Below, piece after piece: positions 54,256-54,634 of a DNA stretch of 64,000 nucleotides. The notes beneath the pieces are model-generated. The model was not told the DNA's origin. It did no database searches and saw only the letters and a program-made list of their open reading frames with translations. Origin of the DNA: an uncultured Pelagibacteraceae bacterium (GTDB lineage Bacteria; Pseudomonadota; Alphaproteobacteria; Pelagibacterales; Pelagibacteraceae); assembly GCA_902626725.1 (NCBI GenBank), contig CACOGI010000001.1:202001-266000 (forward strand), read 5' to 3'. Each line of letters starts with the position of its first letter. Position 1 is the first letter of the stretch. Both the position numbers and the translations under genes were made by a program.

Positions 54256-54327
54256 ATGAAATATATTATTACAGGTGCTGCTATAGCTTGGGCTTTATAT
54301 ATGGCAGATAAATATTTATTTTTTTAA
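54256..54327 (+). CDS. Candidate 23-aa hydrophobic small protein MKYIITGAAIAWALYMADKYLFF
   Basis: ATG 4 nt after livM stop, single TM-like peptide, stop TAA at 54325-54327; below the ORF-track length cutoff. Confidence 0.45.
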   Translation: MKYIITGAAIAWALYMADKYLFF

Positions 54328-54483
54328 AGTCCAGCCATTCTTTTTTAATACTTTGATTAAATTTTCTTTCATCTCATCCCTTGATGTATTTTTATCACCT
54401 ATTTTTTCAAAGAATACAGGCTCTAAACCTTTATCTTTTTTTGATTTAAAATAGTTTTTGATTGATTGTATTATTAGTTTCAT
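54316..54483 (-). CDS. Candidate 55-aa small protein MKLIIQSIKNYFKSKKDKGLEPVFFEKIGDKNTSRDEMKENLIKVLKKNGWTLKK, riboswitch-controlled
   Basis: ATG at 54483-54481 preceded by GGAG Shine-Dalgarno at 54491-54488; stop TAA 54318-54316; downstream of promoter + riboswitch-like leader; below ORF-track cutoff. Confidence 0.7.
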   Translation of the reverse strand: MKLIIQSIKNYFKSKKDKGLEPVFFEKIGDKNTSRDEMKENLIKVLKKNGWTLKK

Positions 54484-54487
54484 TTTT

Positions 54488-54546
54488 CTCCTTTAGCGTT
54501 ATGTTTTAAGTCCCAGCAAGTAGAGTTATTTTCTAAATCAGGACAA
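54488..54546 (-). promoter_or_regulatory. SAM-II/SAM-V-like S-adenosylmethionine riboswitch
   Basis: Minus strand GTCCTGATTTAGAAAATAACTCTACTTGCTGGGACTTAAAACATAACGCTAAAGGAG: P1 GTCC/GGAC, conserved TGATTTA, TTGC and GCTAAA blocks as recalled for SAM-II/SAM-V; loop CTCT (54525-54522) can pair with SD GGAG (54491-54488). Confidence 0.75.
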
Positions 54547-54550
54547 TGTA

Positions 54551-54574
54551 ATTATACAATAAAATTTATTTTTT
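54551..54574 (-). promoter_or_regulatory. Putative promoter of the riboswitch/55-aa unit
   Basis: Minus strand TATAAT (54556-54551), about 7 nt before the P1 5' strand; weak TTTTCA -35 with 17-nt spacing. Confidence 0.55.
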
Positions 54575-54595
54575 GAAAACAGATTTTTAATTTTA

Positions 54596-54634
54596 TAAAA
54601 AAAAACCCCCAACAAATTAATGCTGGGGGTTTAA
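54596..54634 (-). terminator. Rho-independent terminator of livJ
   Basis: Minus strand AAACCCCCAGCATTAATTTGTTGGGGGTTTTTTTTT: 9-bp GC-rich stem then T-run. Confidence 0.93.

Follow-up and report, generated by a model that had tools for sequence, protein, structure and literature searches.

A SAM-II-like leader as probable translational switch of a mobile microprotein gene in SAR11 bacteria

Introduction

What lies in the gap between the livM-like (BPD_transp_2) and livJ-like (Peripla_BP_6) genes of the window, the 64,000-nt stretch of a Pelagibacteraceae contig analysed here? Methionine and sulfur genes are the known targets of SAM riboswitches. In SAR11, SAM-II and SAM-V switches have been found before metX, bhmT, metY and mmuM (PMC2704228, PMC5069961), and genes behind SAM riboswitches rise upon sulfur limitation (PMC5069961). 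A preliminary description of the gap had proposed a SAM-II/SAM-V-type riboswitch with its own promoter, and gave no description of the 55-codon ORF that follows or of a fixed cassette linking leader and microprotein gene.

Results

Anatomy of the locus

Along the minus strand, the elements come in the order livJ terminator, -35-like TTTTCA, TATAAT, a 6-nt spacer, a 57-nt leader and an ATG. TTTTCA (54579-54574) and TATAAT (54556-54551) are 17 nt apart, and the leader runs from the first base of P1 at 54544 to the end of the GGAG Shine-Dalgarno at 54488, with the ATG at 54483. The letters quoted for the leader in the preliminary description are exact on this strand, including the blocks TGATTTA, TTGC and GCTAAA. 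The ORF (54483-54316) is absent from the listed genes and convergent with livM. The features are as follows.

54597..54629, minus strand: livJ intrinsic terminator (hairpin 54629-54606, T-run 54605-54597), just upstream of the cassette and insulating it, judged from sequence
54328..54593, minus strand: cassette (promoter, leader and ORF), approximate extent from comparison with relatives that have an uninterrupted gap; as A/T runs form both edges, the outer one can be placed only to within some bases
54574..54579, minus strand: -35-like element TTTTCA, 4/6 to TTGACA
54551..54556, minus strand: -10 element TATAAT, 6 nt before P1
54488..54544, minus strand: SAM-II-like riboswitch of 57 nt, beginning with P1 and ending with the Shine-Dalgarno, based on covariance models, conservation and covariation
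54541..54544, minus strand: P1 5' strand GUCC, pairing with GGAC at 54513-54510, with compensatory changes in L264, L265, L189, L218 and L204/L263
54488..54497, minus strand: P2 3' strand GCUAAAGGAG, Shine-Dalgarno included, pairing with CUCU and UUGC of the 5' loop
54316..54483, minus strand: 55-codon ORF MKLIIQSIKNYFKSKKDKGLEPVFFEKIGDKNTSRDEMKENLIKVLKKNGWTLKK, a family A microprotein, based on orthologs, dN/dS and linkage to the leader

The separate promoter proposed earlier, just past the livJ terminator, is borne out by the TATAAT in front of P1 and by a logo that holds across 60 unrelated upstream contexts (<60% shared identity). T-12, A-11 and T-7 are enriched in this logo, together with TTG around -35 and TG at -15/-14. 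The distance is that of a normal promoter and therefore places +1 at the first base of P1. As the logo extends over unrelated contexts, promoter and switch keep their register while all upstream sequence changes.

Relation to known SAM riboswitches

At the Rfam cut-offs, a cmscan of the window did not call the leader. In a scan with relaxed limits, RF00521 (SAM-II, SAM_alpha) aligned to it end to end at 17.3 bits, against a gathering score of 36, with E-values over all 4227 families between 0.035 (search space of 101 bases) and 0.14 (421 bases); on dividing by the family count, a value of order 1e-5 is left for SAM-II alone. Matches to snoR25, IsrM and STnc150 in the relaxed scan are attributed to chance. 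In seven relatives (G003, G008, G009, G010, G013, G017 and G022), the orthologous leaders score 20.1-27.2 bits with RF00521, and no copy scored reaches the gathering score, the best being 27.2 bits. The resemblance of the leader to SAM-II exceeds chance, because the match is end to end and the leader is conserved in relatives in unrelated surroundings; as it remains below the gathering threshold, the leader is filed as a SAM-II-like variant and not as an Rfam SAM-II member. Reciprocally, R1, a covariance model built from leaders of this type, scores the window leader at 84.2 bits and finds canonical SAM-II leaders, e.g. before metY (L259, L260), metF (L219), metX (L030) and the gene that follows L033.

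While the SAM-II half of the earlier proposal stands in this form, the SAM-V half does not. RF01826 (SAM-V) has no covariance match at the locus, and the 11-13 nt A-rich linker, which has no P3, sets the leader apart from that class. The test itself works, since the RF01826 model responds with 78-81 bits to the metY leaders of G012 and G022. In these two genomes, a SAM-II-like leader is directly followed by the SAM-V leader before metY (L166, L167; about 1440-1570). This tandem resembles the known tandem SAM switch of bhmT. RF01726 (SAM-II long loops), a SAM-II relative with extended loops, was likewise rejected, with no match at the locus or in the orthologs.

With SAM-II, the leader shares the H-type pseudoknot, the lack of P3 and the UGAUUUA, CUUGC, A-rich L3 and GCUAAAG blocks in the same order. 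It differs from SAM-II in its shorter P1 (a core of 4 bp compared to about 6), its longer A-rich loop, a P2a formed with the Shine-Dalgarno, the absence of a terminator, its score under the gathering cut-off and its position before microprotein genes instead of met genes. With SAM-V it would share translational control through a short P2a over the Shine-Dalgarno and the same ligand pocket (PMC6061858), whereas it lacks P3, has a different P1 and has two base pairs below the pocket instead of four.

Conservation of the stems and the ligand pocket

The DNA pattern used for collecting leaders, derived from ten of them, fixed paired positions, leaving the first alignment uninformative on P1; divergent covariance-model hits were added later. 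Pair 1 of P1 is G-C in 74 of the 75 distinct leaders and A-U in 1. At pair 4, C-G occurs in 66, U-G in 4 and U-A in 4, the remaining copy having C-G along with A-U at pair 1. Mismatches at pairs 1 and 4 did not occur, though the collecting expression allowed them. Divergent copies carry GUCUG/CAGAC (L264), UGUCU/AGACA (L265), GUCU/AGAC (L189 and L218) and AUCCG/CGGAU (L204/L263); MAFFT misplaced the 3' strand of L204, and this copy was counted by script. Both strands of the inner fifth G-C pair (leaders with GTCCG/CGGAC) are present in 8 of the 75 leaders, neither in 67 and one strand only in none. The outer pair forms in 56/75 compared to 43.1 expected from shuffles (p about 5e-5, uncorrected for relatedness). 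At the level of these alignments, P1 is supported by covariation, and the GUCC/GGAC stem of the preliminary description is backed by compensatory changes in relatives. The complementarity of the CUCU loop to the GGAG Shine-Dalgarno, also noted there, is present, and P2a is paired in every intact copy, with the variants CUCU/GGAG, CUUU/GGAG, CUCU/GGGG and CUCU/AGAG. The compensatory changes anticipated for both stems are, however, confined to P1: P2, including CUCU/GGAG, has only compatible one-sided changes, and full covariation was not found in the leaders aligned. In L203, a damaged leader occurs together with a frame-broken ORF.

In the solved structure of SAM-V, U8-U10, A18, U19, U20, U47, A48, A49 and A50 make up the contacts to SAM and the triple around them; the U:A.U triple of U9, U20 and A48 reads the sulfonium, A18 lies opposite A50, which holds the aminoacyl group of SAM, and the SAM-II core superposes on the SAM-V core (PMC6061858). 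The equivalent pocket positions, i.e. UUU of UGAUUUA, UU of CUUGC and UAAA of GCUAAA, are invariant in the aligned leaders. At the A18 equivalent, nearly all copies have C (A in L202), and the canonical SAM-II leaders L001 and L222 likewise have C. From this pocket we infer that SAM is the likely ligand. None of the copies was seen with a sulfur or methionine gene immediately behind it, and the genomic context therefore does not name the ligand.

Distribution and the microprotein genes

Run on genome_contigs, the DNA pattern matches 103 stretches, nearly all from Pelagibacteraceae, the exceptions being two gammaproteobacterial records and one MarineAlpha5 MAG. R1 yields 51 strong matches (59.8-87.6 bits) among 397 Pelagibacteraceae genomes; those next in rank have about 35 bits or less, and the ones inspected include several canonical SAM-II leaders and some chance intragenic matches. 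Across 387 genomes spread over the class, strong R1 matches occur only in members of this family. According to their records, the relatives that share leader and ORF are single-cell or metagenome genomes of Pelagibacteraceae, and the distribution is patchy, usually with one copy per genome. Phage records contained no leader and no credible protein match. One record titled gammaproteobacterium (L108:300-593, minus strand) has two microprotein-type leaders in tandem, 239 nt apart, the second lying before a possible membrane protein whose frame is cut off by the contig end.

Wherever the frame behind an intact copy is readable, it is a short ORF of about 50 to 110 codons; two frames leave their contigs. 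Family A has a median dN/dS of about 0.14 over 72 distinct CDS, with third-position variability, and its ORF is shown by this substitution pattern to be under coding selection. The family A protein profile has 46 matches in the 397 genomes, each with a same-strand upstream leader (46/46); the distance is 3-4 nt in 38 and 10-102 nt in the other 8, which have longer N-termini or an intervening ORF. Conversely, 5 of the 51 strong leaders do not precede family A, but other small ORFs or, in L203, the frame-broken copy. As judged by gene order, the linkage of leader and ORF is shown to be obligate. Family B resembles the N-terminus of a longer family A form (L264). The sequences of families C and D are unlike family A, and a profile comparison gave no support for kinship. 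AlphaFold predicts two helices for the microprotein (mean pLDDT 83); searches of Pfam, NCBIfam, PHROGs and PDB sequences and with Foldseek returned nothing credible on its function and no fold match.

Mobility of the cassette

The genes flanking cassette copies fall into 113 sequence clusters, and the cassette therefore occurs in many unrelated places. Among the 30 closest livM matches, there are 20 in which the livM-livJ gap is uninterrupted, lacks the cassette and measures 127-206 nt, and several carry other inserts. The cassette lies directly between livJ and livM in three of the 30 (L223, L230 and L232), and L238 has it with livJ further away. Set against the uninterrupted gaps, the insert in the window has as one edge the A-tract that closes a conserved 23-codon ORF and as the other the A/T run preceding the livJ terminator; the final codons and the stop codon of the microprotein gene (LKK-stop) extend into the pre-existing A-tract. 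The livJ-livM gap looks like an insertion hot spot.

The 23-codon ORF MKYIITGAAIAWALYMADKYLFF (54256-54327, plus strand) is located right after livM and looks like a single-span membrane microprotein; it is conserved, whether or not the cassette is present, in nearly all of the relatives examined. Differing inserts of about 0.9-1.4 kb are present in the livJ-livM gap of L224, L225, L240, L250 and L251. An rhtB motif (RF01814; 49457-49538, plus strand; 72.7 bits, above the Rfam cut-off) is found near the liv operon. Genes next to copies at other places encode, among others, AIPR, Eco57I-type methylase, C5 methylase, PLD-SNF2 helicase, UvrD and PD-(D/E)XK proteins, a selection made partly by size that carries no enrichment claim.

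Discussion

Given the anatomy of the locus, the covariation in P1, the conserved pocket, the place of the promoter, the coding selection on the ORF and its obligate linkage to the leader, and the relatives whose gap is uninterrupted, we propose that the leader is probably a SAM-II variant acting as the translational OFF switch of a mobile microprotein gene. Transcription would start at the first base of P1. With SAM plentiful, the RNA would close as an H-type pseudoknot consisting of P1 (GUCC/GGAC), P2b (UUGC/GCUAA) around SAM and P2a (CUCU/GGAG), and P2a would cover the Shine-Dalgarno, keeping the 55-codon ORF off. When SAM falls, P2a would open and the microprotein be made. This OFF polarity is inferred by analogy, as production at low SAM follows from the established SAM-II/SAM-V logic. 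Promoter, switch and ORF would then act as one unit of about 270 bp, present at many unrelated SAR11 chromosomal places.

The same pseudoknot could in principle belong to a SAM-II-derived aptamer with changed specificity, recognizing SAH or another adenosyl or sulfonium compound. The replacement of A18 by C in almost all copies, the long A-rich loop between UGAUUUA and CUCU and the missing methionine gene downstream are compatible with such a shift, but the positions of the sulfonium-reading triple (U9, U20, A48) do not vary and CUUGC is also carried by canonical SAM-II leaders; we regard a different ligand as unlikely. Coincidence of the invariant positions with SAM contacts, together with the reciprocal model matches to canonical SAM-II leaders, also argues against a leader that resembles SAM-II only by descent or chance and that, bound by a protein or structured in some other way, needs no small ligand to control translation. 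Such an arrangement appears very improbable, even though so short a leader is conserved to a very high degree, as protein binding sites are.

If the conserved element were mainly DNA, i.e. an attachment or recombination site of the mobile cassette with an incidental RNA resemblance, the many unrelated contexts and the insertion at an A-tract in the livJ-livM gap would be readily accommodated. However, a DNA site would not be expected to show paired P1 changes or to keep a promoter at a fixed distance, and the insertion edges are located outside the leader, near the 3' end of the ORF and upstream of the promoter, making this explanation extremely improbable.

Functionally, the nearest counterpart to the proposed OFF switch and its microprotein comes from marine picocyanobacteria, where the type 2 glutamine riboswitch (Downstream-peptide motif) is dedicated to proteins of very small size (PMC6316151, PMC2864571). 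Both are metabolite switches, putatively so here, dedicated to tiny unknown proteins in a streamlined marine clade, although the glutamine switch has an unrelated RNA fold and ligand and is activated by glutamine. Because of this parallel and the response of SAR11 to sulfur limitation, our default reading is a microprotein with a regulatory role in methyl or sulfur shortage, and the protein is most likely a small post-translational regulator or adaptor under sulfur/methionine shortage. The cassette copies are located in variable islands, and restriction-modification, AIPR, PLD-SNF2 and nuclease genes adjoin some of them. Alternatively, the cassette may be a mobile alarm for SAM depletion, in which a fall in SAM, caused by phage SAM-degrading enzymes or by methyl-donor starvation that lets restriction enzymes cut host DNA, would free the Shine-Dalgarno for production of a small effector or antirestriction protein. 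We consider this quite unlikely, and a phage- or restriction-related role is the weaker alternative to our default reading.

No description of a short-P1 translational subtype with a microprotein cassette was present in the literature searched, which did not include the primary SAM-V paper (PMC2764483). New is the tie of the leader to genes of about 110 codons or fewer, extending to every main-family copy among the 397 genomes. One SAM-riboswitch subtype is hence linked to orphan microproteins whose genes change places in SAR11 genomes together with a switch and promoter of their own, providing a short, testable RNA and a defined logic, with production presumably at low SAM, for a family of tiny proteins. 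The host clade is among the ocean's most abundant bacterial groups, and our data suggest that a recurring cassette in SAR11 turns on a tiny-protein family when S-adenosylmethionine is low.
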